Of a stretch of 64,000 nt of DNA, positions 4,641 to 64,000 are shown in pieces. The first letter of the stretch is position 1. Every line of letters begins with the position of its first letter. Source of the DNA: Magnolia sinica (Eukaryota > Streptophyta > Magnoliopsida > Magnoliales > Magnoliaceae); contig NC_080582.1 in the NCBI RefSeq assembly GCF_029962835.1, forward strand, positions 15,694,032 through 15,758,031. The letters are read 5' to 3'. The notes under the pieces are model-generated. The model saw nothing but the letters and a program-made list of their open reading frames with translations, was not told where the DNA came from and did no database searches. Both the position numbers and the translations under genes were made by a program.

Positions 4641-5314
4641 TGACGTAGGGATGAACATGATGAGGTCGATCACCTTCTTCAGACAACTACTTCGAATCCA
4701 CGAAGCCTCTCTAGACTCCTCACAGAGACTTCTCGAATCCATGAGGAAAAAAAGCAAGAAAATAGAAATAATATTCTAGAAAATTTGTAAATTTATTGAT
4801 GATTGAATAAATGAGTTTACACTCCTTTAAATAGGGATACTAAACCATGAAAGAAGTTTCAGAATTAAGCTACAACTAAAACTCCTAGAAATCATGACTT
4901 ACCATAAATAGTAAACTTACTATTTATAGACGGTCGTGATTTTTACTAGTGCGCATGGTTTTCAGCCAAAAATAGTAAGTGTCCTATTTAGCTTCAACAT
5001 GCTGTTCTCCTAATTATTCTAAGTACTTTTAATGTTGGGCCCAACTCGTAAAGCCCAACGGATGAAGAGTTATAACAAAACTGTAACTTATTATAAATAG
5101 TGAAAATAAAATTAAAACAGGTATTCGACAAACGATCCGATGGTATTTCGCAAATTCGTCTTGGGCAAAATCATATATGGTATATCTGATAGCTCATTCC
5201 GATTTGTGAGATACGTCTGTTTGAAGTTCTGACAGTCTAGATCACATCCATCTTTGATCGGGCCTTTTTTGGTCCATCTTGGTCATGAAACTATCCGCGA
5301 CCTGCTCTGCATCA
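4641..5314 (-). mobile_element. Solo LTR of an LTR retrotransposon (fossil)
   Basis: A 674-bp block begins TGACGTAGGG and ends CTGCATCA. It is flanked by the exact 5-bp duplication GGCCC (4636-4640 and 5315-5319). It shows an LTR-like promoter stretch (CTTTAAATAGGG on the plus strand near 4833-4844) and no internal coding region, so it is a solo LTR in minus orientation. Three relatives lie at 13808, 15005 and 56019. The superfamily cannot be told from the LTR alone. The paralogous minisatellite near 39.4 kb lacks it, so it inserted after the duplication or was never in that copy. Confidence 0.8.
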
Positions 5315-5640
5315 GGCCCACACTATAAGGTGGGATCCACATGATAGACGATGGATAGAGGCCCACATATGGATAGTAACATTGAATATAAGCCCCACAA
5401 GATGGATGGCCCATATCAAGGTGGGCCATCTTGAGGACAATTCACATCGAAGATCTGCCCATAGCTAGTGATGAATGACCAATGTTTAAGGCAAGTCCCA
5501 CATAATGGACAGCCCATTTTGAAGTTGGGCTTGCATGATGAACAGTCCACATTAAGGTGGCCACGCATGATGGACGACCCACATCCAAGGTGGGCCTCAC
5601 ATAACGGGTAACCCATATCAAAGGGGGAGCGGATTAGGTG
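5315..5640. repeat. Minisatellite, duplicate 1, right part
   Basis: The same degenerate units continue after the LTR (for example ATGATGGACGACCCACATCC and AAGGTGGGCC). Because the unit length is close to a multiple of three, long open frames appear here on the minus strand; they are not taken as genes. Confidence 0.7.
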
Positions 5641-5862: not shown

Positions 5863-8583
5863 TCACTTACTTGAAAGACAACAATATTCTTTGAAACGGA
5901 TGTAGCTTGGCTTGATACTGCCCTCCCATTTTATATTTTCCCACCATTTCAGCTCACCTTGGATATCAACTTCTGTTGCAGAAGCATTTGTGTTATCGAG
6001 AGGAAGCTTCTCCAGCAGCGGGCATCCTCGAATCTTCAACTTCTTCAGCATCGGCAAGTGCCCACCGCAAATGCTTTTCAGTTTGCGTAGCTCCCAAAGA
6101 CATATATCAACTAGCTGTGGAAATGCATTTTGCCCCACCTCGCTGTCTTCTTCAAAGACCTTCTCCAGTCTACAACAGAATTTTATTTCAAGTAATTCGA
6201 GATTCTGTAACCGAATGCTTGAAGAGAAGAAATTGATTAGCTTCGGACAACATTCCAAATATATATGCTTTAGGCATGCAAAGCTTCCTCTTCCCAACTT
6301 CCCCCGGCACACTGTTATTAATTTGGCAAGATTGGACACCCGTAGATTTTCTAAACAGACAACTGCATCAATGTCTACCATTCGTCCAACTATCAGATAC
6401 TCCAATTGATGGCATTTCTCAATCCAGCATTCTTTAAGGTTGTCCATCTCCATGCCAAGATTGGACAGTGCCTTAAGGAATGCATTGCCATACAAATGAA
6501 AGAATTCTGTCACTGAGAGAACCCCTCCAACACCGTCTAGGGAATTCTTACCACCACAAACCTCCAGTTGTCTTTCATAACTCAAAGACTGCTCAAATCG
6601 AGTATAAATACGCTGGTAGAAAAATCTGTTTCTTTTAAAATCACCATATCTATCCTTGCGCCCTCCCTCGCAGGGACAGACCAAGAAATGAAATTTTTGA
6701 AAGCAGGATTTCCACAGTTTCGAGCTTTCGTCCAAAGACTCAAAAACACTTGCATCACCGACCGAGATGTGACGACTGCTGCTGTCTTGGAGCTGCTCAT
6801 GCAGCAAGTTCAAGCCACATCGATCCCAATTCAAGTTTTCTGGAAGCCGTTCTATCTTTCTCCAGTCAACCGTCTTGAGATGCTCCATTCCCAACAGGTC
6901 TAGGCACTGCATGCTAGTCAGATTGAAAATTTGGTGCGGAAGCACTTCCAATTTCGTGCCTGAAAGATCAAGTGCCTCAAGTTTTGAAAGTTTATCTAGG
7001 CTGGCCAGTGTCATTAGAGAGCGGCAACCCTTGAGCGAGAGCCGGCTGAGGTTGCAGGCACCTGAGATGTCGAGGAGTCGGAGGCTTTGCATGTTATTGA
7101 AGGATGCCTCCACCATCTTTGTCAGGGGAGTTTTATGGAGATCAAGGATCTCAAGCTTCCGCATATACTTAAAGAAGGTAGGAAGACCCTCTAGCTTGTG
7201 GCAGCTTTGGAGCTTCAACAACCGCAATTCACAAAGGCAGGATATGGAGGATGGCAGGGAAGAGATGCTTGTAGAAGAAAGGTCGAGGACTCGGAGTCTG
7301 GTCATGTTCTTGAAAAAACTATCTGGGATTTCTTGCAAGCGATCATTATCATTAAGCAATAACGTTGAGAGAAGAGGGCAGTTTGGAGAGCTGAATTGGA
7401 ATGTTTGTACCTGATTGTGAGATAATGAGATCCATTGGCATGATTCTTCTGCGTCCAAGTTGTATTTCACTAGGAACTTTCGAGAACCAATAACTTGCCT
7501 CACATGAGAATTCATATACACATGATATTGTCCTCCTGAAGATTCCTCCATTGTAAATTGCTCTTGTAGCCAGTTCATAAATTCTGCTTCCTTAGGATGA
7601 TTGTTCCACGGATATATATCTAGTTCTTCGGTCTGCTTTAGAAAGACATTTAGGTAATTTGGGTTTGATGACGTCAGGGACAATAGAACCATGCATCTCT
7701 TCGCGAACTCTTTGAGCAGTACATTCCCCAGTCTCTTGAAAGCCACTTCTTTATTCTCTTCATCATTGAAGAATCCATCTAAAAAGCCCTCCGACCTCCA
7801 ATACTCTTCTATCAAGGAATCTCGGTGGATGGAGCTTCCGTTCTGACAGAACAAGGAAACGTAGGAAAAGCATTTAAAGACCATGTCTCTGTTTGAAAAA
7901 CCAATGCTGGCAGCAACATCATCCATCTCTTCCAGTAAAAAATCCCAGGCATCTTCTTCAGACCACTCCTCCACCTTGATGTCTAATTGGGTTTCCATTC
8001 CATAACAAACTTGATGGGATTGAGTGGTGATGACGACTTTGCTGCCACTTGTAACCGAAACTCCAATATCTTTCAAGTCAAAGCTTTCCCAAACATCTTC
8101 AAAGATGAGGAGGAACCTTTGGCCACTTAACTTATCATTGATACTCTTAGCAGTTGGGGAGATTTGTATGGACTCTGGGATCTTCAATGCCTTCTGGATT
8201 CCCATCTGCACCTCCATAAACCGATTCCTTCTCCCATTTGCAGCCAACCGCTCTACAACACGTTCACACCAAACACTGCGCTGAGTAAACTCTCCTTTGA
8301 TTATATCCGGCATCTTCTCTCCAAGACTCTCGATCCCTGGCGCTCTTATTCGTATGATCACATCAAACAGACGGCTAGATTCTCCAGATTCCTCCATTGC
8401 GGCGACCACCTGTCTCACGATCCGTGACTTCCCCACTCCCTGCCATCCCCACACTGAGAATACTGAAATATTGTCATCTCTCAAGCAATCCCATATCCGT
8501 TGACTCATGCGTTGTGACAAAGCGCTCACAACCTCTCCTCCTCCTTTGAGCCGTCGATCATCATCGTCCCTAGAAGCTGCCAT
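5863..8583 (-). CDS. NLR B: complete intronless NBS-LRR protein, 906 aa, non-canonical NB-ARC
   Basis: Predicted cytoplasmic immune receptor of the RPS2-like CNL lineage, encoded by one uninterrupted frame. Seen: P-loop GWQGVGKS (46-53), RNBS-A-like FDVIIRIRAPG, kinase-2 FLLIFEDVWE (157-166), RNBS-B GSKVVITTQ (180-188), RNBS-C-like EEDAWDFL (209-216), RNBS-D-like CFSYVSLF (238-245), MNS (357-359) in place of MHD, FLVKY, then LRRs from about residue 400 to the end. Missing: the N-terminal coiled coil (only about 30 residues precede the NBS) and the whole GLPL-bearing ARC1 segment, so RNBS-B to RNBS-D is only about 58 residues. The start is ATG at 8583, giving MAASRDDDD, conserved in D and E. 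The C-terminal LRRs are rich in Cys and Leu (for example LECCPKLINFFSSSIRLQNL). The C-terminal codons overlap a GTAAGT. The intact frame and paralogy suggest a functional gene. Nucleotide binding is plausible; switching as in ordinary NLRs is doubtful. Confidence 0.92.
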   Translation of the reverse strand: MAASRDDDDRRLKGGGEVVSALSQRMSQRIWDCLRDDNISVFSVWGWQGVGKSRIVRQVVAAMEESGESSRLFDVIIRIRAPGIESLGEKMPDIIKGEFTQRSVWCERVVERLAANGRRNRFMEVQMGIQKALKIPESIQISPTAKSINDKLSGQRFLLIFEDVWESFDLKDIGVSVTSGSKVVITTQSHQVCYGMETQLDIKVEEWSEEDAWDFLLEEMDDVAASIGFSNRDMVFKCFSYVSLFCQNGSSIHRDSLIEEYWRSEGFLDGFFNDEENKEVAFKRLGNVLLKEFAKRCMVLLSLTSSNPNYLNVFLKQTEELDIYPWNNHPKEAEFMNWLQEQFTMEESSGGQYHVYMNSHVRQVIGSRKFLVKYNLDAEESCQWISLSHNQVQTFQFSSPNCPLLSTLLLNDNDRLQEIPDSFFKNMTRLRVLDLSSTSISSLPSSISCLCELRLLKLQSCHKLEGLPTFFKYMRKLEILDLHKTPLTKMVEASFNNMQSLRLLDISGACNLSRLSLKGCRSLMTLASLDKLSKLEALDLSGTKLEVLPHQIFNLTSMQCLDLLGMEHLKTVDWRKIERLPENLNWDRCGLNLLHEQLQDSSSRHISVGDASVFESLDESSKLWKSCFQKFHFLVCPCEGGRKDRYGDFKRNRFFYQRIYTRFEQSLSYERQLEVCGGKNSLDGVGGVLSVTEFFHLYGNAFLKALSNLGMEMDNLKECWIEKCHQLEYLIVGRMVDIDAVVCLENLRVSNLAKLITVCRGKLGRGSFACLKHIYLECCPKLINFFSSSIRLQNLELLEIKFCCRLEKVFEEDSEVGQNAFPQLVDICLWELRKLKSICGGHLPMLKKLKIRGCPLLEKLPLDNTNASATEVDIQGELKWWENIKWEGSIKPSYIRFKEYCCLSSK

Positions 8584-8720
8584 TGCCTATGCTAGAGCTC
8601 TCCTGCAAAATTCGAATTTGTAGTCTCGTGAGCAAGGGTGGCAATGGGCCGGGCAACGCACCCAGATCAATTTTCCAAGCTGTGTTTGTGCTCAAGTCAT
8701 TTTAGCCCCACCCATCACCA
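8584..8720 (-). promoter_or_regulatory. 5' flank of NLR B (class 2)
   Basis: The conserved leader (plus strand: CTCCTGCAAAATTCGAATT, GGTGGCAATGGGCCGGGC, CCAAGCTGTGTTTGTGCTC) is shared with loci D and E but differs from the A/C flank beyond about 60 bp. It is likely 5'UTR plus core promoter; no clear TATA box. Confidence 0.45.
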
Positions 8721-31499: not shown

Positions 31500-34230
31500 T
31501 TATGGACGCCTTTCTTTGAAATGGATGTTGCGTGGCTTGATGCCGCCTTCCCATTTTATGCTTTCCCACCATTTCAGCTCACCTTGGATCTCGACCTCTG
31601 CTGTAGAATCATTTGTGTTATTGAAAGGAAGCCTCTCCAGCATCGGGCATCCTCGAATCTTCAACTTCTTCAGCATCGGCAAGTGGCCACCACAAATGCT
31701 TTTTAGCTTGCGTAGCTCCCAAAGACGTAAATCAACTAGCTGTGGAAATGCATTTTGCCCTGCAACATTGTCTTCTTCAAAAACCTTCTCCAGTCTACAA
31801 CAGAATTTTATTTCAAGTAATTTGAGATTCTGTAACCGAATGCTTGAAGAGAAGAAGTAGATGAGCTTCGGGCAACATTCCAAATATATATTCTTTAGAC
31901 ATGCGAAGCTCCCTCTTCCCAACTCCCCCCGGCACACTGTTCTTAATTTGGCAAGATCGGACACCCTTAGATTCTCTAAACAGACCACTGCATCAACGTC
32001 TGCCGTTCTTCCGACAACCAGATACTCCAATTGATGGCATTTCTCAATCCAACATTCTTTAAAGTTGTCCATCTTCATGCCGAGATCGGACAGTGCCTTA
32101 ACAAATGCATTGCCGTACAAATGAAAGAATTCTGTCACCGAGAGAACTCCTATAACACCGTCCAGGGAATTCTTACCCCCGCAAACCTCCAGAATTCTTT
32201 CATAACTCAAAGATGGCTCAAATCTTGAATAAATACGCCGGTAGAGAAATCGGTTTCTTTTTAAATGAGCACATATATCCTTGCGACCTGCTTTGCAGGG
32301 ACAGACCAAGAAATGGAATTTTAGAAAGTAGGATTTCCAGAGTCTCGATTTTTTGCCCAAAGACTTGAAAACACCAGCATCACTGACCGAGATGCGACGT
32401 CTGCTGCTGTCTTGGTGCGGTTCATGCATCAAGTCCAAGCCACAACGATCCCAATTTAATTTTTCTGGAAGCCGATGTATATTTCTCCAGTCAATCATCT
32501 TCAGATGCTCCATTCCCAACAGATCCAGGCACCGCATGCTAGTCAGATTGAAAATTTCATCCGGGAGCTCTTCCATTTTCGTGCCTGAAAGATCAAGTGC
32601 CTCAAGTTTTGAAAGTTTCTCCAGACTAACCACTGTTAGTAGAGAATGACAACCCTTGAGTGAGAGCCTTTTGAGGGTGCAGGCACCCGATATGTCGAGA
32701 CGTCGGAGGCTTTGCATGTTGTGGAAGGATACCTCCATCGTCTTCGTCAAGGGAGTTTGATGGAGATCAAGGATCTCAAGCTTCTGCATATCCTTTAAGA
32801 ATGCAGGAACAACCTCTAGCTTGCAGCAGCTTCGAATCTTCAACAACCGTAATTCGTGAAGGCAGGACATGGACGATGGCAGGGAAGAGATGCTCGTAGA
32901 AGAAAGGTCAAGGACTCGGAGTCTGGTCATGTTCTTGAAAAAACTGTCTGGGATTTCTTGCAAGCGATCGTTATCATTGAGCAACAACGTCGAGAGGAGA
33001 GTAGTTTGGAGAGCTGAATTGAAATGTTTCTACCTGATTGTGGGATAATGAGATCCATTGGCATGCTTCTTCCCCGTCTAAGTTGTATTTCACTAGGAAC
33101 GTCTGAGAATCAATCACTTGCCTCACATGAGAATTCATATCCACATGATAGCGTCCTCCCGATGATTCATCCATTGTAAATTGCTCTTGTAGCCAATCCA
33201 TAAATCCGTCTTCAGTAGTTTGAAATTTTGACGTGCTATCTAAATATTTTCCATACTTGTTTAGATAAAAGTGTAGGTAATCTGGGTTTGATGACATCAG
33301 AGACAGTAGCACCATGCATCTCTCTGCTAGCTCTTTGAGCAGTACATTCCCAAGTCTCTTGAAAGCCGCTTCTTTATTCTCCTCCTCATTGAAGGATCCA
33401 TTTAAAAAGCCCTCCGACCTCCAGTATTCATCTATCAAGGAATCCCCATCAATGGAGCATCCGTTTCGACAGAACAAGGAGACGTAAGAGAAGCATTTCA
33501 AGACCATGTCTCCTGTTGTTGAGAAACCAATGCTGGTGGCCACATCGGCTGCCTCTTCCTTCAAAAAATCCCAGGCGTCTTCTTTAGACCACTACCCCAT
33601 CATGATGTTTACATGGGCTCCCATTTCCTTACAAACTTCATGGGATCGAGTCGTGATGACGACTTTGGTGCTGCTGGTGATAGCAGATGACATGACTGGG
33701 GGAACTCCCATCTCTTCCAAGTTGATGCTTTCCCAAACATCTTCCAAGACAAGGAGGAAACGCTGGCCGCTTAGCTTAGCCGAGATTAGTTTAGCAGCTG
33801 CAGAGAAGTGCATGGACTTTGGGATCTCCAACGCCTCCTTGATTCCCATCTGTACCTCCATCAACCGATTCCTTCTTCCCTTTGCATCCAACGCCATTAA
33901 AAGTCGTCTCCTTAAACTCGACAAATTGTCCAATTCTCCTCTGATTCTCGCCTGCATCTTCTCTGCAAGACACTCGACCCCCGATGCTCTTACTCGAATG
34001 ATTACATCAAACAGACGACTAGATTCTCTGGATTCCTCCACCACCGCTGCAACCACTTGTCTCATGATCCTTGTCTTGCCCACTCCCTGCCATCCCCATA
34101 CGGAGAACACTGAAATCTTTTCATCTCTCAAGCAATCCCAAATCTGTTGCCTCATGCATCGTGACCAATCGTTCACAATCTCTCCTCCTCCTCTGAGCCG
34201 TCGATCATCATCATCCCTGGAGTCTGCCAT
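31500..34230 (-). pseudogene. NLR C: full-length NBS-LRR pseudogene
   Basis: The same gene type as NLR B with the start MADSRDDDDRRLRGGGE at 34230 (upstream in-frame ATG at 34302). The NBS part has P-loop GWQGVGKT, kinase-2 FLLVLEDVWE and STKVVITTRS. It is broken twice. GAG became TAG at 33592-33594, just before WSKEDAWDFL. A net 2-bp loss near 32985-32998 shifts the frame at the start of the LRR (SPN|LLLNDND). All other sequence is open, including 495 codons of LRR from 32987 to the stop at 31500. MNS again replaces MHD and the GLPL segment is missing. Closest to locus A. With so few lesions it is probably a young pseudogene; a truncated NBS protein of about 212 residues could still be made. 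Confidence 0.88.
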
Positions 34231-34430
34231 CGCCTCCGCGCGATCCCTTTCTGCAATATTTGAATTCCATGTTTCATGAGGGTGGAAATGGAGAGGGATC
34301 AATTCTCAAGCCGGGTTGGGCTAAAGTCATTTTAGACCGATCCATCCCGACCTGACTTCATATCTATCCCTTATATCACCTATATATTTTTAAAAACACA
34401 AGCTTGGGCATCCTGTTTTAGTCACATGAT
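34231..34430 (-). promoter_or_regulatory. 5' flank of NLR C (class 1)
   Basis: Leader with TGAATTCCATGTTTCATGAG, then CAAGCCGGGTTGGGC, TCATTTTAGACCGATCC and CACCTATATATTTTTA. The same sequence is upstream of locus A and the stubs. TATATATT near 34380-34387 could be a TATA element. Confidence 0.4.
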
Positions 34431-39947: not shown

Positions 39948-42731
39948 TCACTCACTTGATGGACACCATTCTTTGAAATGGATGTTGCTTGGCTTGATGT
40001 TGCCCTCCCATTTAGTGCTTTCCCACCATGTCAGCTCACCTTGGATCTCGACTTCTGATGTAGAAGCATTTGTGTTATGAAGAGGAAGCTTCTCTAGCAA
40101 AGGGCATTCTCGAATCTTCAACTTCTTCAGCATCGGCAAGTGCCCACCGCAAATGCTTTTGAGTTTGCGTGGATCCCAAAGACGTAAATCGACTAGTTGT
40201 GGAAATGCATTTTGCCCCTCCACGCTGTCTTCTTCAAAAACCTTCTCCAGTCTACAACAGAATTTTATTTCAAGTAATTCAAGATTCTGTAACCGAATAC
40301 TCGAAGAGAAGAAGTTGATGAGCTTCGGGCAACATTCCAAATATATATTCTTTAAACATGCGGAGCTCCCTCTTCCTAACTCCCCTCTGCACACTTTTCT
40401 TAATTTGGCAAGATCCAACACCCTTAGATTTTCTAAACAAATTGCCGCATCATCGTACGTCCCTCCTACGAACAGATACTCCAACTGATTGCATTTCTCA
40501 ATCTAACATTCTTTAAGGTGGTCCATCTTCATGCCTAGATTAGACAATGCCTTAATGAACACATTGCCATACAAACGAAGGAATTCTATCACCGAGAGCA
40601 ATCCTCTAATACCATATAGGGAATTCTTACCACCGCAAACCTCCAGCCGTCTTTCATAACTCAAAGACTGCTCAAATCGAGTATAAATATGCTGGTAGAG
40701 AAATCGGTTTCTTTTAAAACAAGCAAATATATCCTTAGGCCCTCCCTCGGAGGGACAGACCAAGAAATAAAATTTTAGAAAGCAGGATTTCCATAGTTTT
40801 GAGCTTTGGTCCAAAGTCTCAAAAACACTAGCATCACTGACCGAGATGCGATATATGCTGCTGTCTTGCAGCTGTTCACGCAGCAAGTCCAAGCCCCATC
40901 GATCCCAATTTAATTTTTCTGGAAGCCTATCTACCTTTCTCCAGTCAACCCTCTTGAGATGCTCCATTCCCAACAGGTCCAAGCACCGCATGTTAGCAAT
41001 ATTGAAAATTCCGTGTGGAAGCTCTTCAATGCTCGTGCCTGAAAGATCAAGCGACTCAAGTTTTGAAAGTTTATCTGGGCTGACCAGTCTCAATAGAGAG
41101 CGACAACCCTTGAGCAAGAGCCGACTGAGGTTGCAGGCACCAGAGATATCTAGACTTCGGAGGCTATGCATGTTGTGGAAGGATACTTCCACCATCTTTG
41201 TCAGGGGAGTTTGATGGAGATCGAGGATCTCGAGCTTCTGCGTATCCTTTAAGAATGCGGCTGGAAGAGACTCTAGCTTGCAGCAGCTTCGAAGCTTCAA
41301 TAACCGTAATTCATGAAGACAGGAAATGGACGATGGCAGGGAAGTGATGCTTGTAGAAGAAAGGTCGAGAACTCGGAGTCTGGTCATATTCTTGAAAAAA
41401 CTGTCTGGGATTTCTTGCAAACGATCGTTATCGTTGAGCAACAACGCAGACATAAAAGGGCAATTGGGAGAGCTGAATTGGAGTGTTTCTACCTGATTGT
41501 GGGATAATGAGATCCATTGGCATGATTCTTCCCCGTCCAAGTTGTATTTCACTAGTAACTTTTGAGAATCAATCACTTGCCTCACATGAGAATTCATATC
41601 AACATGATATGGTCCTCCTGAAGATTCCTCCAATGTAAACTGCTTTTGTAGCCAGACGTTAAATTCCGCTTCCTTAGTATGAGAGTCCCAAGGCGCTAAA
41701 TTTTCTGAAGACTGCTCTAGAAAGAGAGTTAGGTAATTTGGGTTTGATGACGCCAGGGACAATAACACCATGCATCTCTCTGCCAGCTCTTTGAGCAGTA
41801 GATTCCCCATTTTCTTGAAAGCTGCTTCTTTATTCTCCTCTTCATTGAAGGACCCATCTAAAAAACCCTCTGACCTCCAATACTCTTCTATCAAGGAATC
41901 TTGATCGATTGAGCATCCATTTTGACAGAACAAGGAGACGTAAGAAAAGCAATTCAAGACCACGTCTCCAGTTGAGAAACCAATGCGGGCAGCTACGTCA
42001 GCTGTCTCTTCCTGTAAAAAATCCCAGGCATCTTCTTTAGACCACTCCTCCAACATGATTTTTAATTGGGCTCCCATTTTGGAACAAACTTCATGGAATT
42101 GAGTGGTGATGACGACTTTGCTGCCACTGGTGGTGGTAGGGGCTGTGATTGGAACTCCCATCTCTTGCAAGTCAAAGCTTTCCCAAACATCTTCAAAGAT
42201 GAGGAGGAACCTTTGGCCGCTTAACTTATCCTTGATACGCTTAGCAGCTGTAGAGAATTGTATGGACTCTGGGATATCCAATGCCTCCTTGATTTCCATC
42301 TGCACCTCCATTAATCGATTCCTTCTTCCCTTTGCATCCAACATCTTTAAAACCCGTATCTTCTTATAAAGCTCAATTTCAAGCTTAAATATTAATCTGC
42401 CGTATCTTGTAATCTGGTCCTGCAAATGGTCGAATTCTTCTCTGAATTTCTCCAGCATCTTTTCTCCAAGACTCTCGATCCCTGGTGCTTTTACTCGTAT
42501 GATCACATCAAACAGTCGGCTAGATTCTCCAGATTCCTCCATTTCTGCGACCACCTGTCTCACAATCCGTGACTTCCCTACCCCCTGCCACCCCCATACT
42601 GAGAATACCGAAATCTTGTCATCTCTCAAGCAATCCCATATTTGTTGCCTCATGCGTTGTGACAAAGGGCTCACAATCTCTCCTCTTCCTCCTTTGGGCC
42701 GTCGATCATCATCATCCCAAGAAGCTGCCAT
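39948..42731 (-). pseudogene. NLR D: near-intact NBS-LRR with one in-frame stop
   Basis: Starts MAASWDDDDRR at 42731. P-loop GWQGVGKS (47-54), kinase-2 FLLIFEDVWE, GSKVVITTQ, CFSYVSLFC, MNS and the full LRR are present; no GLPL segment and no coiled coil. The only lesion seen is TGG to TAG at 40503-40505, inside KEC(W)IEKC, after 742 residues. The frame then stays open to the normal C-terminus at 39948. A 742-residue product with most of the LRR could be made, so it may not be a null allele. Sister to NLR B by duplication of the whole segment. Its promoter is split by a 675-bp insertion. A sequencing error or a segregating stop is possible. Confidence 0.88.
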
Positions 42732-42827
42732 TGTCTACGCTGGTTCTCTCCTGCAAAATTCGAATTCCTTGTCTCATAAGTAACGGTGGCAATGAACCGG
42801 GCAACACACCCTCGTCAATTTACCAAG
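42732..42827 (-). promoter_or_regulatory. 5' flank of NLR D (class 2), interrupted
   Basis: CCTGCAAAATTCGAATTCC, GGTGGCAATGAACCGGGC and CAATTTACCAAG match NLR B. The rest of the block (CCAAGCTGTGTTTGTGCT) resumes at 43503 after an insertion. Confidence 0.5.
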
Positions 42828-54757: not shown

Positions 54758-55474
54758 TTAGTTGAAGGACACCATTCTTTGAAAGGGATGTTGCATGACT
54801 AGATGCTGCCTTCCCATTTCAGAACAAACATCATGGGATTGAGTCGTGATCATGACTTTGCTGCCACTGGTGGTGGCAGGGGCTGTGACTGGAACTCTCA
54901 TCTCTTGCAAGTCAAAGCTTTCCCAAACATCTTCCAAGATGAGAATGAACCTTTGGCCACTTAATTTATCCTTGATACGCTTAGCAGCTATGGAGATTTG
55001 TATGGACTCTGGGTTCTCAAATGCATTCTGTATTCCCATCTGCAACTCCATCAACCGATTCCTTCTCCCCTTTGCATCAAACATCTTTAAAACCTCTAAC
55101 TGTCGTTCAGGCTCAATGAAATGCCAAGTACCTACATCAACCAATTTCCTTATTGTCAGCTTGTCCTGCACATGGACCAATTCCCCTTCAATTCTCGCCT
55201 GCATCTTCTTTGCAAGACTCTCCAACCCTGGTGCTCTTACTCGTGTGATTATTTCAAACAGATGGCAAGATTCTCCAAATTCCTCCATTTCCATGACCAC
55301 CTGTCTCATGATCCGTGACTTCCCCACTCCCTGCTGTCCCCATACTGAGAACACTGAAATCTTGTCATCTCTCAAGCAATTCCATATCTGCTGCCTCATG
55401 CGTTGTGACAGAGTGCTCAAAACCTCTCCTCCTCCTTTGAGCCATCGATCATCATTGCCTTTAGAAGCTGCCAT
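54758..55474 (-). pseudogene. NLR E: NBS-LRR with about 2 kb internal deletion
   Basis: Starts MAASKGNDDRW at 55474. P-loop GQQGVGKS, an insertion between RNBS-A and kinase-2 like that of NLR D, kinase-2 FILILEDVWE and GSKVMITTQ are present. After VCSEMG the sequence jumps to the last 20 codons of the gene (junction at about 54811-54819) and continues in a different frame for 20 foreign residues, giving a 238-residue frame. Compared with D, RNBS-C, RNBS-D, the MNS region and all LRRs are gone. In D the two breakpoints share AAATGGGAG, so a microhomology deletion is likely. A product would be a bare P-loop/kinase-2 domain. In the gene's own frame the residual tail also carries a stop. Confidence 0.85.
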
Positions 55475-55590
55475 TGCCTAACGCCAGATTTCTCCTGCAA
55501 AATTCGAATTCCTTGTCTCATGAGTAAGGGTGGCAATGGGCCGGGCAATGCACCTGCATCAATTTTCCAAGCTGTGTTTGTGCTCAAAGT
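55475..55590 (-). promoter_or_regulatory. 5' flank of NLR E (class 2)
   Basis: CTCCTGCAAAATTCGAATT, GGTGGCAATGGGCCGGGC and CCAAGCTGTGTTTGTGCTC as in NLR B, with no insertion. The truncated gene therefore keeps a full promoter-proximal region. Confidence 0.45.
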
Positions 55591-55654
55591 AATATGGAAT
55601 TGGTTAGTGAAACAGTGGTTAGTGAACGCCCACCATTAAAAACTTGTTGCGGAA

Positions 55655-56545
55655 AGGGAGACGATTAGGTCCATCCCTGACTGCGTGGCCCACCTTTGAT
55701 ATATATATTGAATATCAATATCATCCATCTGTCTCTACAGCCCATTTTAGAGCATGAGCCCAAAATTGAATTAAATCCAAATCCCAGATCAAAAGATTAT
55801 ATGGCTAATAAACATTACGATGGGTATTACAGTAGGCCTATAAAGTTTTTAATAGTATGTATTCAGTCAGCACGGTTTCCTATAGTATAGTCGAAGTGAG
55901 GTATGGATCTGCCTAATTTTTGGATTCTTGTACTAAACGGAGCTAGGTAGGAAAATAGATGAACGGTATCCATATACCATACATAAATCAAAGTGAGCTC
56001 CACTGTCGGGGCTACAGCTGATGTAGAGTGGGTTGCAAATAGTTTCATGGCAAAGATGGACCAGAAAAGGCCCAATTGGAGGTGGAAGTTATCCGGACTA
56101 TCAGGATGTTAAAACGTGCATATTGCCTATGCTGAATTTGCGAGATTCCATGGTATTGACTATCAAAAATCAGATTAAATTTTGTTTTTACTATTTATAG
56201 TAAGTTTTAATTTGATCATAACTTTTGATCTGTCGATGTTCTAATACGAAAGCTGCTTAGAAAAATTAGGAGAATAACATGGTCAGAAAACCATGAGTTC
56301 TAGTTGACATCATGACCATCTATAAGTAGTAAGTTTACTATTTATGGTAAGCCACGGTTTTATGGAGTTTTTGTTTTAATTTGATTCTGGAACTTGATTT
56401 CATTTTTTATAATAATAGGCATATCTGTGTGGAGTCAAGATAAGTTACGTGGATTTAGAATATTTTTCTCGCCGTGGAATACGGTCGAGCATGTTCTCCC
56501 TGCGTCAATAGCCTATTGGGTGAGTCAGGCCATACGAAATTGGGA
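55655..56545. repeat. Foldback MITE split by a solo LTR
   Basis: Left GGGAGACGATTAGGTCC, GATTTGGG-type middle and right arm ATGAACGGTATCCATATACC up to 56018. The LTR occupies 56019-56507, then ATAGCCTATTGGGTGAGTCA continues the right terminus. Confidence 0.55.
56019..56507 (+). mobile_element. Solo LTR, same family, shortened (fossil)
   Basis: TGATGTAGAG at the start and CCTGCGTCA at the end match the inverted ends of the LTRs at 4641, 13808 and 15005. Flanks ACAGC and ATAGC are a near-perfect 5-bp duplication. At 489 bp it is shorter and more diverged than its relatives, so it is probably the oldest. The only plus-oriented copy. Confidence 0.7.
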
Positions 56546-56589
56546 AAGCCTTTTAACCTGCTGCAAAGACATGACATTAGATATTGGAC

Positions 56590-57060
56590 GATCGTGTCCG
56601 GGTCTCGATGGAGCTGCCCTTGATGTATATTTTTATCCATGCCAGTCATCTATTTTAATAATTCATTTTAGAGCATGAACCCAAAAAGGAGGCTGATCGA
56701 AGGCCTGAGTAGACCACACAAAGGGAAGAAGTGGAGATTGAAAGCCCATTGTTGAAAACTTCTTAGGGCCACAGAAATTTTGAATCAAGCTGATATTTGT
56801 TTTTTCCCTTCATCTAGGTCTATGTGCCCTTGTTAACAGGTTGGATGGAAAATAAAATTCACAGTGGGTACTATGAAGTTTTCAACAGTAAGAGTTCAAT
56901 CTCCACTACTTTGCCTGGTGTGGTCTACTTGAGCCTCATAGCTGTCTCCTTTTTGGGCTCATTCCCTAAAATGATCTATCAAAATAGATTGACAACATGG
57001 ATAGAACATATATATCATGGTGGGTCCCACAAAGCCTCTGACAGTTGTCTCTAGCTAGGT
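56590..57060. repeat. Foldback MITE copy
   Basis: TTTTTATCCATGCCAGTCAT on the left, GATTGACAACATGGATAGAA with ATATATCATGGTGGGTCCC on the right; full middle. Confidence 0.6.
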
Positions 57061-57410
57061 ATAGGTTCGGTAGTACTCAATCAGAGGTGGGCATCGAGTC
57101 AAGCCGGACCGGATTGGGTCCAGGTTGACTCGATCCGAATTTTTAAGTAATTGATCTGAACTCGATCCAATACGGGACCGAGTTCTGGTCAACTGACTCG
57201 ATTCGATCCGATGCATTACTAGCCTGACCTGAACCGAGTCCAACTCGGTCAAGGAAACCAAGTCGGATCAGGTTGGGCACAATTCGAATCGAGTCTTCTG
57301 TTTTATTTTATTTTTTGAAAGATTAAAATAAAAAAAAAAAAATATGAACGTCATGGATGAAACACATACATCATGGTGGGGCCACACCAACCATCCGCCA
57401 TTGGCTGGTG
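57061..57410. repeat. Degenerate TCGGATCC-rich repeat and MITE right-end remnant
   Basis: 57065-57295 is made of irregular CGGACCGGATTGGGTCC / GACTCGATCCGAA motifs. A similar tract is at 60880-61070. 57345-57400 is the end of a MITE right arm (GTCATGGATGAAACACATAC). Confidence 0.5.
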
Positions 57411-57569
57411 GTAGGGGGAGTAGCCAATCTATTTCTAAATCAGAGTTGGGAGGGTAATAGGCGAGTTAGAAGTTTCTAAATCGGACTTGGGAGGGGGAAA
57501 GGCGGGATAAAAGGCCTACTTGGTAGGGAATCTAGGGAGCAGTGGGATTTTGGCAGAAGAGAGGGAAGT

Positions 57570-58085
57570 GGCTTACGTACTATGCTAAGCGTACTGAGTA
57601 AACTATGTAAGGCCCAACATGATGTATTTATTTTATCCACTTCGTCCATACATTTTGTAATTTAATTTTAATAAATGAGATAAAAATAGAGCATATCCAG
57701 AGCTCAAGTGGACCACACCATAGGGAACAGTGTGAATTGAAAATCTACCGTTGAAAAATTCATTGGGTGGATAGACGCTTTGAATCAAGCTGATATTTGT
57801 TTTTTCCCTTCATCCATGTTCTTATGATCTTATGAATAGGTAGGTAGGATGAAAAATAAACACTAATGTGGACCCTAGGAAGGTTTCAACGGTGGAAATC
57901 ATTATTCCCACTGTTTTTTGTGGTATGGCCCACTTGAGCTTTGGATATGTTTCGATTTTTGGTCCAACAGCTAAAATAAGATAAAAAATGGATGGGCAGC
58001 GTAGATAAATCACAAGAATTCAAGGTGGCCCATAGGAGTTTACTCAGTATGATAAAAGCATACTGAGTAACAAAGTACGTTATCC
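57570..58085. repeat. Foldback MITE copy (GTACTGAGTA terminus subfamily)
   Basis: Left CTTACGTACTATGCTAAGCG and TACTGAGTAAACTATG; right CATACTGAGTAACAAAGTAC then GTTATCCGATTGG. Arms ATCCACTTCGTCCATAC and ATGGATGGGCAGCGTAGAT. It lies only 100 bp from the giant foldback and shares its TACTGAGTAA motif. Confidence 0.6.
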
Positions 58086-58188
58086 GATTGGATTTCAGAG
58101 GAGAGAGAAGTGTAGTAATTACCGTTGACTACAGCTGGGTGCCTGCTGCCCAAGGGAGGCCTCATCAATGCGCCACCCACTTCCCTTA

Positions 58189-58873
58189 CGAATCGGATTG
58201 TGTACTGAGTAACCCAGTACCACAAGGGTTACTGAGTTGAGGTGGCAGCATTCTATTGGCCAAAGGCTGGCTTCACTCCTCCAAGCGGCAGAGCAAACGG
58301 CGTTAACCCATTTCTCTCTCCAGTTGAGTGGAGAGATTCTCTCCCGCATCTCCCCCCGTGCAGGGAAAAAAAAAAATCTCTCCACTGTGCTGGGGAAAAA
58401 AGAAGAAGAAGAAGAAGAAGAAGAAGAAGAAGCAGAGAGAGAGTTTATCGGTCTCTCTTGTTAACCTCTCCGTCTCCCTCTCGAGTTCAACCTCCCTCTC
58501 TTTTTCGGATCGACATCAACTCGTTTCTCTAGATGGTGATGTTGATTTATGATTAGGAATTTTTCTCCTTTCTCTTCTCTCTTTACATGGTGATGTTGAT
58601 TTAGGATTAGGGATTTTGCTCCCTTCAATTGATAGTTTGATGAGAGATTAGAGACTAGGGTTTGAAATTGAAAATCCGCAGTAGGGAATTCTTCAAATCC
58701 CTAACCCATAACTTGAGATTTTTCAAATTTATAATTCCTAATTAGCATTTTCATATTAGAAATTGAAAATTCATATTATGGGATTTTTCAAATCTCTAAT
58801 CCATAACTTGAGATTCTTCAAATTTATAATTAGCATTTTTCAATCCCTAATACATAGTAGGGGATTCCCTATT

Positions 58874-58962
<89 letters not shown>

Positions 58963-59746
58963 AGATAGTACTTAAATGTGCATTTTTTTTTCAATCCCTA
59001 ATTAGGATTTTGCATTTGTAAATTTAATTGGGGACTTTTTTTAATCCAGTTACGGTTTTCAATTTTTAATCCCTAATTAGGGATTACAAATTAATTAGAG
59101 ATTGCAGATTGAAAATCTTAAATTAGGTTTTTTTAAACATTTGATTAGGGTTTTGATTAAAATCTTCATTATAATTTTGATTAAGATTTTTTTACTATTT
59201 TAATTAGGGTTCTTCATTTGATTAGCGATATGATTGTTTTAGTAAGTTACCTTCACCTTAAATGTTATCTCTAAAATAAATAAATAAATAAACAAAATTT
59301 GGTAATGGACTAACCCTTGCTTAATTGGTAATCTGGACCTAATTTGCCGAATGCTTGCTTGAATTACGGAATCATGTCGTAATTGGAAAGTTAACTTGAT
59401 AAGCTAAAACTGTTTTTTTTTTTTTTTTAGCTTGAGTGATGTTTAACCTTTGAACTATAGTCATGCTCTTTGTTGACAAAAAATGGATAACCACCTTGGG
59501 TTTTATCATTCTACGGATATTTGCCTCAAAAGGCTTGTTGCTAACAATAATTAAGGTGGTTATCCATTTTTTGTCAACAAAGAGTGTGGCTATAGTTCAA
59601 AGGTTAAACATCACTCAAGCTAAAAAAAAAATTTCGGTTTTAGCTTATCAAGTTAACTTTCCAATGGCGACGTGATTCCGTAATTCAAGCAAGCATTCAA
59701 CAAATTAGGTCCAGATTACCAATTAGGCAAGGGTTAGTCCATTCCC

Positions 59747-59815
<69 letters not shown>

Positions 59816-60818
59816 TAACATTTAAGGCGAAGGTAACTTACTAAAACAATCATATCCCTGATCAAACGAAGAACCCTAATAAAAATCGTAAAAAAATCTT
59901 AATCAAATAATCAAATGTTAAAAAAAACCTATTTTAAGATTTTTAGTCTACAATCTCTAATTAATTTGTAATCCCTAATTAGGGATTAAAAATTGAAAAC
60001 CGTAACTGGATTAAAAAAAAGTCCCCAATTAAATTTACAAATGCAAAATCCTAATTAAGGATTGAAAATAATAAAAAATAATAATAAATACGCACATTTG
60101 ATTAGAAATGTTATCTCTAAAAAAAAAACAAATAGGGAATCCCCTACTGTGGATTAGGGATTGAAAAATGTTAATTAAAAATTTGAAGAATCTCGAGTTA
60201 TGGATTAGGGATTTGAAAAATCCCCTAACATGAATTTTTAATTTCTAATATGAAAATGCTAATTAGGAATTATAAATTTGAAAAATCTCAAGTTATGGAT
60301 TAGGGATTTGAAAAATTCCCTGCTGCGGATTTTCAATTTCAAACCCTAATCTCTAATCTCTCATCAAACTGTCAACCGAAGGGAACAAAATCCCTAATCC
60401 TAAATTAGCATCACCATGTAAAGAGAGAAGAGAAAGAAGAGGGAAATTCCTAATCCTAAATTAACATCATCATGTAGAGGAAACAAGTTGATGCCGATAC
60501 GAAAAAGAGAGGGAGGTTGAAGTCGAGAGGGAGACGGAGAGGTCGACAGGAGAGACCGGCAAACTCTCTCTCTACTTCTTCTTCTTCTTCTTCTTCCCTG
60601 CACAGCTGGAGAGATTTTTTTTTATTTTTTTTTTCTGCACGGCGAGGAGACGCGGGAGAGAATCTCTCTACGCAACTAGAGAGAGAAACGGGCTAACATC
60701 GTTTGCTCTGCCGTTTGGAAGAGTGAAGCCGGCCCCACATATTAGGGCCAATAGAATGCCGCCACCTCAACTCAGTAGCCCTTACGATACTGAGTTACTC
60801 AATTCACAATCCGATTCC
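58189..60818. mobile_element. 2.63-kb giant foldback element, Mutator-like by its 9-bp target duplication
   Basis: Two arms of about 1.3 kb (58189-59497 and 59553-60818) are inverted copies around a 55-bp loop. Termini: GAATCGGATTGTG on the left, CACAATCCGATTC on the right. CTTCCCTTA flanks both sides (58180-58188 and 60819-60827). A 9-bp duplication with long inverted repeats is the known signature of Mutator-like elements. The arms contain a CT-rich, 5'UTR-like stretch (about 58310-58540) with a GAA run, then AT-rich DNA with repeated CCCTAATC motifs. By eye the arms match very closely except where microsatellites differ: (TA)n(GA)n at 58879-58959 only on the left, (TA)n at 59751-59812 only on the right. 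No transposase frame is seen. A transcript would fold into a long hairpin. Confidence 0.85.
58401..58432. repeat. (GAA)n microsatellite, left arm; TTC counterpart at 60575-60597
   Basis: The same repeat is present in both arms of the foldback with different length. It creates Lys/Arg-rich open frames that are not genes. Confidence 0.85.
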
Positions 60819-60839
60819 CTTCCCTTAGGTCACCTTTTC

Positions 60840-61070
60840 TTGGGAAATGGTTTTACCCCATCTCTTTACTTCTCATATGACTAGATCGTATCGGAACAGA
60901 TCGAATGGGATCCAATCGGATCGGTCCGAATTGACCACTAATCCAAACTCGATCCGATGTACGATCGGATTTGAGTGGGCCTACTCAATCTGCACCTATC
61001 CTGGCCTTCGGTTCGGTTCGGATTGGGTCGGATTCTATCCAGCTCTATACCCAATCCGAGTCTTAATACA
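60840..61070. repeat. Degenerate TCGGATCC-rich repeat
   Basis: Irregular GATCGGATCGGTCCGAATT-type motifs, the same kind as 57065-57295. The two tracts lie on either side of the foldback and MITE pair. Confidence 0.45.
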
Positions 61071-61074
61071 CTGG

Positions 61075-61500
61075 GGTGGAGCCTTTAACCTCGACGCAGA
61101 TTACAGACGGTGCTATGTGAGCCCATTAAGATGTTTGTGTTTAATGTATGCCATGGGAAATAGTGGTGATGAACACACACCTTTAAAAACTTCTTGTAAG
61201 GGCCGAACCTAATCTGGTGGAGAGCTTTAACCTACCGTAGGGTGGGCCCAACAGAATTTTGGACCTAAGGCCTAATGTTTTTCTGTGGCATGTAATGATT
61301 TGAGTGGATTTCAGATAATCATCAGGTGGGGCTCGGTGCATCTCCCAACTTTTTCTTTTAGTGTGGTCCATCTAAATAACAAGTCAGCCTAATTTTCTGG
61401 ATGTAAGACTAACTATAATATACTTAACAATAGGAGTGGATATCACATACACATATGGTGGGCCTTGTAAAAGATTGGCAGGGGCGTCCCACTCCGGCTG
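61075..61500. repeat. MITE half and two tandem right-arm variants
   Basis: 61075-61205 is a left-middle piece (GTGAGCCCATTAAGATG, AATAGTGGTGATGAACAC). 61205-61500 has two right-arm units (ATTTGAGTGGATTTCAG; AATAGGAGTGGATATCAC) like those at 10960. Confidence 0.45.
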
Positions 61501-61534
61501 TTAGATGAGATTTTCAAAAGCCTGACTCCAGGCA

Positions 61535-61960
61535 ATGTGCACTAAGTTCAGAGCCACACAATGAAGCATGTGTTTTATGCAGACTGATTTATCCATTTTT
61601 CAGTTCAATATAAGGCATGGGCAAATAATGATGTAGATTGAATGTTAAGTGGACGACCACCAAAGAAAACAGTGGGAGTTAAAGCCCACAGTTGAAACCT
61701 TCTCATGTAGGCTACTGAAAAAAGTGGGATTCACTGTTGAAATAGTCTTAGGGCTCACCGTGATGTTTTATTTTCCAAGGTCATGTACTTAGATGAACCG
61801 TAAAACACAAATATGAGCTCAATGACCGTTAGTTTTTTTTTCCCATGGTCCACCTAAAGCTTAGGATCTGCAAATGCCCTAAAATGAGTTAGAAAATGAA
61901 TAGACAATATGGATAAAACACATGCAGTATAGTGGCCCCCAAAGAGCTTGGGCCACGCGG
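61535..61960. repeat. Foldback MITE copy
   Basis: GAAGCATGTGTTTTATGCAG on the left; GAATAGACAATATGGATAAA with ACACATGCAGTATAGTGG on the right. Confidence 0.55.
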
Positions 61961-62029
61961 TACCACACCGATATCTCTACAGCCGGTGCAATTAGTTTCC
62001 TTCTATTATTATTATTATTATTATTTTTT

Positions 62030-62385
62030 ATGGGATGCCCACCGAGCCCCAACTACAATGCGTACCTGAAATCCATTTGGACCATTAAATCTATAATTCC
62101 ATAGAGAGCCTAAATCCACAAAAATCAAGTTAGCCTATGATTCAAGTGGGCCACAATAAATGAAGTGGTTATAAGATAGATGTTGTTCGTTGAGTTTTTT
62201 CAAGGCCCACCATGATTATCATGTGACATCCACTCAAAACTTTAGATGCCAAAAATTTATTTAGGACCCGGTCCAAAAAATAAGGACAATCTTTACTCAA
62301 GTGGGCCACGCCAAGGGAAACAATTTAGAGGATGCGCGTGGCCCTATACACTATTTTCAATCAACCGTGTGGTCCATTTTAATCA
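62030..62385. repeat. Diverged foldback repeat
   Basis: GAAATCCATTTGGACCATTA, CAAGTGGGCCACAATAAATG, AAGGCCCACCATGATTATC and CAAGTGGGCCACGCCAAGG. Related in design to 51050-51530. An (ATT)n run precedes it at 62005-62025. Confidence 0.4.
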
Positions 62386-62579
62386 CAGATAGAATTGAGC
62401 TTTGAGCAATTCTCTTAAAAATGTTTCGTGTGCACCGGTTGGAGTGCATCTTGGAAATGGGTCCCACCCAATGCAGCCCATGGCAAGATTGGGATGTAAC
62501 CTGTGTCAGCCGGAGAGGAGGAATGAAAATGGGTAGAAATGGCTTTTTATCTTCACCTGTGTTAGTAGGAAACATTTTT
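62386..62579. other. Short unassigned gap
   Basis: Nothing recognised. Confidence 0.3.
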
Positions 62580-64000
62580 TTAAAAATATAGAATTTAAAG
62601 GCTTTTTGCGTAAATTAATTTTTATGAAAAATTCCATTCTTTTATAACAACACCTTGTTAATGATATTTGCATTTTGGTGCCTATTTAATTCATTTTTAA
62701 GTAACTTCATTAATTGGTGGGCAGTTTCATCATTTTAGGAAAAATCATTGTTGGAGAAAATTAACTTAAGGTAACCATTGGACGATTAATATTTTGTAAA
62801 ATTATCTTTATTTTACTAACTAACTATTACTGGAATATATAGGAAAGATTTGAGATTTCTAGAGATTTATAGAGATCTTAGCAGATACTCTTCTTAACAT
62901 ATAAATTTATTTTAAAAAAAAAAAAAACATCCCACTTTAGTAGGATTACCCTAATACTGTAACAAACCTAAATTCTACCCATACTCAAACTTTTCACGGC
63001 CAGCTTATTTAGACTTCAATCCATACACTTATCAAAGGGAACTGGTCACCTGTAGGGGTCTACACCGCATGTTTTCAGCCATTGGATGCTTTGAATGGGT
63101 GTGAAGGAAAAATAAAATAAAAGAATATTTAACTTATTAAATAGGTGCCCGTAGGTAATCACTTCTGATAATTGAACGAGTCAGATCAAGAACTCATCTC
63201 AACTATGCACAACTCATCCTACTTGCACACCTTCCAAGAATATTTGGCATATATTCACACCAGCCATGATAGAATATCTCTTAATATGAGAAAAGAGGGA
63301 AATTTCAATAGATGTACATACCTGAAATTGATGGCTTTCCAGTAGCAACTCAAATAAAATTAACAAGACATATCAAGTACTGCTGCAAGCTTGCAAGCTT
63401 CATACTGCATATGTTTATTTATGCTACCCAAAAGTAGAGGTGAAGGCAAGTGTGATGAAGAAGTGGATGCTTCCTTGCATGAAAGGGAGAGGAAAAGAGA
63501 AAGGTAGGTGCTTCCTTCCATCAGAGGGAATGGGATGTCCTGTGGAAGAGAGGAATCCCTTTTGCAGTCAAAAGCAATCTTGGCACTCTTTACACTAAGA
63601 GGGGTAGGCCAGAGTGTGTTTCATTCGAGGCAAAATTCCCTCTTCGAAATTTTTTGGAATTAGTCGTGTTGGGTTTATGATTGATGCATCCAAGCCATTG
63701 TTCTGTTTGCTCCCATCATGGATGGAAAATGTCTCCAAAATCTCCCAAATTGAAAGATTGTAGCCATCAAATCTTTGACCTTTCCTTCCATGAATGTGGT
63801 CTGTTCATTCATTTCTTTTAACCATGTATTTGCATGCCAACAATGGGAAGGTTAGTGCTAACCAATTGAGAGGATATATTGGTATTGGTACATCCATATT
63901 TGGGGATGTTAGATCAATGGCTTGAATAGACTATCCACGAGCCCCACATCTACCAACTAAGTTGAGAAACTAACAGAGAACTCAGCAGTTTTCATTCACA
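62580..64000. repeat. Alpha block, copy III, running off the right edge
   Basis: TCATTTTAGGAAAAATC, CACTTATCAAAGGGAACTGG, TTCTGATAATTGAACGAG, TGGAAGAGAGGAATCCC and GTTAGATCAATGGCTTG follow the same order as 19290-20760. A beta block may follow outside the window. Confidence 0.6.

Follow-up and report, generated by a model that had tools for sequence, protein, structure and literature searches.

A 2.6-kb foldback element of the Mutator type in Magnolia sinica, multiplied passively with an NLR gene cluster

Plant foldback elements belonging to the Mutator-like elements (MULEs) are already known, and what the locus described here adds to them is its unusually long arms and the good historical record that it has kept. 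The Arabidopsis foldback elements known as FARE (Windsor and Waddell 2000, as cited in PMC3169594 and PMC4486113) have long palindromic repeats at both ends and are classed with the MULEs, and the present element, likewise a plant foldback of the MULE class with long palindromic terminal repeats, is likened to them by description only, as far as the passages on FARE in these two papers go; noted against the likeness are some imperfect direct repeats within the arms (76 nt spaced 95 apart, and 47 nt spaced 54 apart) and a family transposase of the FAR1 type. The MuTAnT elements of Medicago, as described in PMC4486113, are also MULE derivatives that consist largely of terminal repeat and fold back, but the first member to be described is 292 bp long with 144-bp repeats, the family ranges from about 200 bp to more than 1.6 kb, and TA runs are its targets. 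Mu killer of maize, going by the account of its make-up in PMC3440606, is comparable as a deleted, inverted MULE derivative able to form a long hairpin, whereas its inverted part is transposase-gene sequence, none of which is detectable in the foldback studied here. With the Pack-MULEs, lastly, the element shares captured DNA inside it, and PMC3310237 holds that capture can lengthen terminal repeats; the difference is that neither coding sequence nor an exon was recognised in what the foldback has captured. PMC3310237 also states, for MuDR and Pack-MULEs, that MULE ends carry promoters.

The length of the arms can be judged against the survey PMC6446971, whose figures for terminal repeats are 14-500 bp for the MULEs it analysed (640 bp in one table row) and 39-292 bp for the Jittery subgroup of dicots and monocots, FAR1 and SWIM being listed there for the plant subgroup. 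The family of the present element is assigned a likeness to Jittery/Hop by domain content (FAR1, MULE and SWIM together in a relative on contig C19), but the terminal repeats of five of its eight inspected relatives (C19, C9, C7, C1 and C5) measure 1182-1648 bp, which is outside those 39-292 bp (a described range in that part of the survey, and not a definition) and two to three times its 500-bp upper figure. The titles found in literature searches included no FAR1-type MULE whose terminal repeats reach kilobase length, and none of them dealt with this locus.

The window, that is, the whole 64,000-nt stretch of DNA analysed, lies on contig C10 of the Magnolia sinica genome, and the features of interest within it are these:

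58180..58188, no strand assigned: target-site duplication of 9 bp, left copy, CTTCCCTTA (from the sequence and five related empty sites)
58189..60818, no strand assigned: whole foldback element, read as a non-autonomous Mutator-like element of a FAR1-transposase family (from inverted-repeat, genome-copy and terminus comparisons)
58190..59498, plus strand: left arm, terminal inverted repeat (from the arm alignment and comparison with relatives); it holds a CT-rich leader at about 58300-58530 and an AT-rich inner part
59304..59744, no strand assigned: captured DNA, made up of the loop and the inner end of each arm; it recurs elsewhere in the genome, at several places near fragments of CLC chloride-channel genes
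59499..59552, no strand assigned: loop (from the arm alignment)
59553..60818, minus strand: right arm, terminal inverted repeat (from the arm alignment and comparison with relatives)
60819..60827, no strand assigned: target-site duplication of 9 bp, right copy, CTTCCCTTA (from the sequence and related empty sites)
54758..55477, minus strand: fragment of an NLR gene with the NB-ARC domain, lying 2.7 kb away from the foldback (Pfam match in the window copy; the equivalent stretch of all five duplicated units found by protein-to-DNA matching)

The foldback is a discrete mobile element of the Mutator type, as a sequence-only reading of the window had proposed, and its relatives with the same termini, the MULE-class transposase in some of them and the related empty sites all bear this out. 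With arms of about 1.3 kb each and a total length of 2.6 kb, it far surpasses every other inverted repeat of the window in strength (756 bits vs 154 for the second, about fivefold). The arm alignment that had been asked for gave 1084 matches and 98 mismatches, i.e., 91.7% ungapped identity over 1182 columns (K2P 0.089), with 20 gap openings covering 211 columns and a loop of 54-55 bp, the innermost ungapped blocks (59419-59497 and 59553-59631) having 55 nt between them. The high arm identity previously judged by eye is this 91.7%, and the differences include long microsatellites and indels. As the usual terminus of the family is GGAATCGG, the element was taken to run from 58189 to 60818, its first base being C in place of G, a change present in all five copies on C10. 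No Rfam family matched 55000-64000 at the gathering thresholds, and the element gave no match, at E values up to 1, to the three transposase pieces of one relative; with a MULE transposase of its own not detected, the foldback is filed as a non-autonomous derivative.

Relatives were looked for across 1.84 Gb of genome in 127 contigs, using as a query 301 bases from the left end and adjoining flank, which gave 41 matches among the best 40 of 126 candidates scored, so that family counts are lower bounds. The search for the termini, one of the checks proposed earlier, recovered five copies with paired ends on C10 as well as relatives elsewhere, of which eight paired-end loci outside C10 (C19, C9, C7, C4, C1, C5, C11 and C6) were inspected. 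Both ends read GGAATCGG in five of the eight (C19, C9, C7, C4 and C1); the C5 relative is one base off at both ends, and those on C11 and C6 differ at one end only, by one and two bases, respectively. Five of them (C19, C9, C5, C7 and C6) are flanked by a 9-bp duplication in which no more than one base differs, and no clear one was found around the other three (C4, C1 and C11); a duplication of this length falls within the 8-11 bp of the MULE superfamily. Looking for a transposase-bearing relative, likewise proposed beforehand, led to the C19 locus, between whose ends the Pfam domains FAR1 (1.9e-26), MULE (6e-31) and SWIM (7e-8) are found. This transposase lies in three pieces of a single frame, separated by single stop codons, the first carrying FAR1, the second MULE and SWIM, and the third giving no Pfam match, while pieces from C9, C6 and C7 match some of the same three domains. 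Genome-wide, and irrespective of position between family ends, the transposase has at least 104 matches (among the best 103 of 857 candidates scored), several of them more than 90% identical and some of these without stops.

Two of the relatives with transposase pieces, those on C19 (L015 789-1403) and C9 (L017 4628-5092), have a second open frame in common, of 205 and 155 aa, the C19 frame being without a Pfam match. The C7 relative (L026 2-4023) spans 22 kb, and its open frames look by eye like a nested retrotransposon. In the C4 relative (C4:22449914-22455500, the end of L020 together with L021), the inverted repeat extends outside the termini at 97% identity, the flanks being inverted copies of each other.

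We put the probability at about 0.9 that the foldback is a non-autonomous MULE of this FAR1-transposase family, with unusually long terminal inverted repeats, which arose by internal deletion, was inserted by a transposase acting in trans and was copied passively thereafter. Judging from the relatives, the deletion would have taken away the transposase together with most of the interior, so that two terminal repeats, with captured DNA at the inner end of each, remained with the 54-55 bp loop between them, and the transposase for the insertion would have been supplied from elsewhere in the genome. Long terminal inverted repeats, a trait of the MULE superfamily, are common to the foldback and the transposase-bearing relatives, with alignment lengths of 1579 bp in C19, 1563 bp in C9, 1648 bp in C7, 1334 bp plus an outer 105 bp in C1, 1182 bp in C5 and 609 bp in C6; that of C11 comes in two pieces of 145 and 284 bp, and that of C4 overruns the element. 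Such variation (C6, C11 and C4 in particular) speaks against this reading, as do the three relatives with no clear 9-bp duplication (C4, C1 and C11), and no single parent that would give exactly this foldback by deletion was identified among the relatives inspected.

An alternative origin, in which the arms were joined by recombination or by the head-to-head insertion of two family members, has to be weighed against the tree of 24 outer arms. In this tree the five left arms form one clade (support 100/100, stem 0.039) and the five right arms another (83/92); in C19, C9, C4 and C5, by contrast, each arm has the other arm of its own element as sister (the C7 and C6 pairs are not resolved). The ten C10 arms are held together as one group by support of 39/0 only. 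These groupings are what a chimera might leave; unequal rates of change after insertion could yield the same tree, however, and the captured DNA is common to both arms right up to the loop, an arrangement that the C1 relative shows too, so we regard a chimeric origin as an alternative deserving attention but unlikely. Whichever way the arms were joined, the tree places their separation before the duplication of the locus with the surrounding NLR cluster. Forcing the two arms of the window copy into a pair was rejected (p-AU 1.2e-50, for the pair of this copy only), and the tree gives no sign of homogenisation of the arms since that duplication. The sequence-only reading had taken the element to be young; with left arms grouping with left arms and right arms with right arms across the five copies, youth was discarded.

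The sequence 59304-59744 has 36 matches in the genome (18 of 18 candidates scored); this number takes in the five C10 copies, and the places outside C10 are on C9 (two), C16, C1, C12, C17, C3 and C7. Three of these places were inspected: those on C9 and C16 have no other part of the family arm in the 3.4 kb covered, and their match to the C1 relative extends over a longer stretch; at the third (C1:28.45 Mb) a family end is nearby. The C1 relative has arms, captured DNA and loop in common with the foldback but has kept an interior; in this relative the captured stretch extends towards a CLC chloride-channel fragment (L022, about 5234-5575; Pfam Voltage_CLC, E 4e-5, 23.3 bits, below the curated cut-off of 24.8); seven of the places matching 59304-59744 have copies of the CLC region at a distance of 2-6 kb. 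It is likely, from these comparisons, that a family member captured DNA whose end then became part of both arms, and the foldback may serve as an illustration of captured DNA turning into terminal repeat. The CLC-like fragment of the C1 relative is itself a Pack-MULE-like capture, with more than ten other copies of the region genome-wide at 86-97% identity. The CT-rich leader, which had been suspected of being captured from a gene, was rejected as such: it is ordinary terminal repeat, because it is located in the part of the arm shared by the relatives, and the captured DNA is instead that at 59304-59744.

As for the insertion site, searches of the genome with the right flank (best 40 of 1718 candidates scored) and the left flank (21 matches; 21 of 21 candidates scored) place the flanks of the foldback in an older dispersed repeat and lead to places where both flanks meet or where one occurs alone. 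All five inspected places of this sort (on C5, C8, C11 and two on C13) run continuously through the insertion point without the element, each with one equivalent of the target that differs from CTTCCCTTA at 2-3 of its 9 bases, and are 78.5-83% identical to the joined flanks of the foldback. Empty sites and other copies with these termini, whose absence had been named as a ground for giving up the mobile-element reading, thus do exist, and by their sequence these five empty sites are relatives of the target repeat within the same genome, being neither the orthologous site nor that of a relative species. Given the duplication and these sites, the deleted MULE would have been inserted into the older repeat by cut and paste, the 9-bp duplication being made in the process, after which it would have become immobile and its arms would have diverged before the locus was copied.

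The five C10 copies lie within 0.91 Mb in alternating orientation, and their flanks are 94-99% identical to those of the window copy, on the right over at least 392 bases (where the match of copy b ends) and on the left over some 1 kb or longer, the left-flank match among the units extending for 4.7 to 5.9 kb. The target duplication is common to all five, one copy having one changed base on the left side, and about 2.7 kb from the foldback each of the five units has a match to the first 200 residues of an NLR protein from the window. Within the window, NB-ARC-LRR resistance genes form a cluster on the minus strand (5863-8586, 31500-34305, 39948-42734 and 54758-55477), of which one is an open frame of 907 aa and the others are partial or in pieces. 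As the same flanks surround the five copies and the NLR stretch is shared, one insertion was multiplied by duplication of the NLR cluster, rather than five insertions having taken place; the foldback has been carried passively to five places. A sixth, empty duplicated unit was not seen on C10: in the left-flank search (all 21 candidates scored) the five units came out at 93-100%, followed by a match at 88%, and the right-flank search covered the best 40 of 1718 candidates. Copy a (L009 1762-3904) has a 2.1-kb insertion within its left arm, in which self-comparison found no internal repeat. Foldbacks are difficult to assemble, which lends some substance to the view that the structure is no transposon but arose as an artefact of assembly or by local inverted duplication; this is contradicted by the five diverged copies, whose borders are clean and shared, by the related empty sites and by the transposon relatives on other contigs, and we consider it scarcely credible. 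The result is a natural five-copy series, stemming from one insertion with shared flanks and provided with related empty sites, on which the silencing and decay of a foldback can be studied.

The pattern of mutation was counted in copies a, w, d and e (copy b, with its short right-flank match, being left out) at sites where the four copies either agree or differ 3:1, provided that the nearest gap is more than 3 columns away and that the site is not part of a two-letter run; the p values are nominal, coming from several tests and uncorrected for multiplicity. The element changed faster than its flanks (3:1 differences at 139/2204 vs 246/7464 sites), with transitions at CHG sites at 26/99 vs 30/462 (Fisher p 1e-7) and at CHH sites at 34/604 vs 39/2287 (Fisher p 6e-7), against 18/97 vs 42/278 at CG sites (p 0.42), 23/1404 vs 43/4437 at A/T sites (p 0.04) and, for transversions at all sites, 38/2204 vs 92/7464 (p 0.09). 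Relative to A/T transitions, the CHG excess over all flanks is 2.4-fold (p 0.019) and that of CHH is 1.95-fold (p 0.055), or 2.23-fold (p 0.028) when only flanks more than 0.5 kb away are taken. For the two arms separately, the CHH excess corrected in this way comes to 3.4-fold on the right (p 0.03) and 1.6-fold on the left (p 0.26), in spite of a higher raw rate on the left (20/301 vs 13/287), because A/T changes are also commoner there. The adjoining kilobase on the left is similar to the element at CG and CHG and lower at CHH (5/280; p 0.008 vs the element), and the first 0.5 kb of the right flank is like the element at CHH (6/131). A looser count with all five copies went in the same direction, with an intermediate right flank (CHH 6/103), and no significant preference for CWA was found within CHH sites (13/190 vs 21/414 for the others; p 0.45). 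This excess of CHG and CHH transitions, the CHH part being borderline after correction, suggests methylation, which the locus has probably undergone; as a pointer to methylation directed by small RNAs the pattern is weak.

Whether the element acts as a long hairpin is a related matter. The plus strand is predicted to fold at -1749 kcal/mol, vs -557 to -583 for three mononucleotide shuffles (about threefold), with 19 uninterrupted helices of at least 21 pairs, the longest of 81, and a read-through transcript would, as computed, give about 1.1 kb of mostly paired RNA, a likely dicer substrate. An active small-RNA locus, transcribed through both arms, diced, and methylating itself and its full-length relatives in a manner akin to the effect of Mu killer on MuDR, via terminal repeats and not transposase sequence, would draw on these helices, on the 125 to 621 exact 21-mer positions that the foldback has in common with each of the eight relatives and on the CHG and CHH transitions. 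CHH methylation is possible without small RNAs, though, the CHH excess is reduced by the correction for A/T transitions, above all in the left arm, the nearest right flank resembles the element, and the relatives, which carry the same repeats, could be the source themselves; we hold such an active locus to be rather unlikely. More than 1.6 kb from both ends, seven of the eight relatives share no 21-mers with the foldback and the C1 relative shares 102, a comparison that C11 (2.3 kb) cannot fail and C4 (4.0 kb) hardly can, and any effect like that of Mu killer would, by this distribution, work through the ends and not through the transposase reading frame. The strict Mu killer model, with transposase sequence in the arms, was rejected on the transposase comparison given above. 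Distinctly unlikely, in our estimation, is the further proposal that a hairpin made of terminal repeat only, brought to five copies by hitchhiking with the NLR cluster, would be a standing source of small RNAs that silences the FAR1-type MULE family in trans and places methylation beside NLR sequences, a guard in the manner of Mu killer without its transposase sequence.

In the host repeat to the left of the deleted MULE, a stretch at 58060-58089 that ends in ATCCGATT is 73% like the right end of the foldback over 30 bases, and the insertion may, on this similarity, adjoin a distant relative of the foldback itself.
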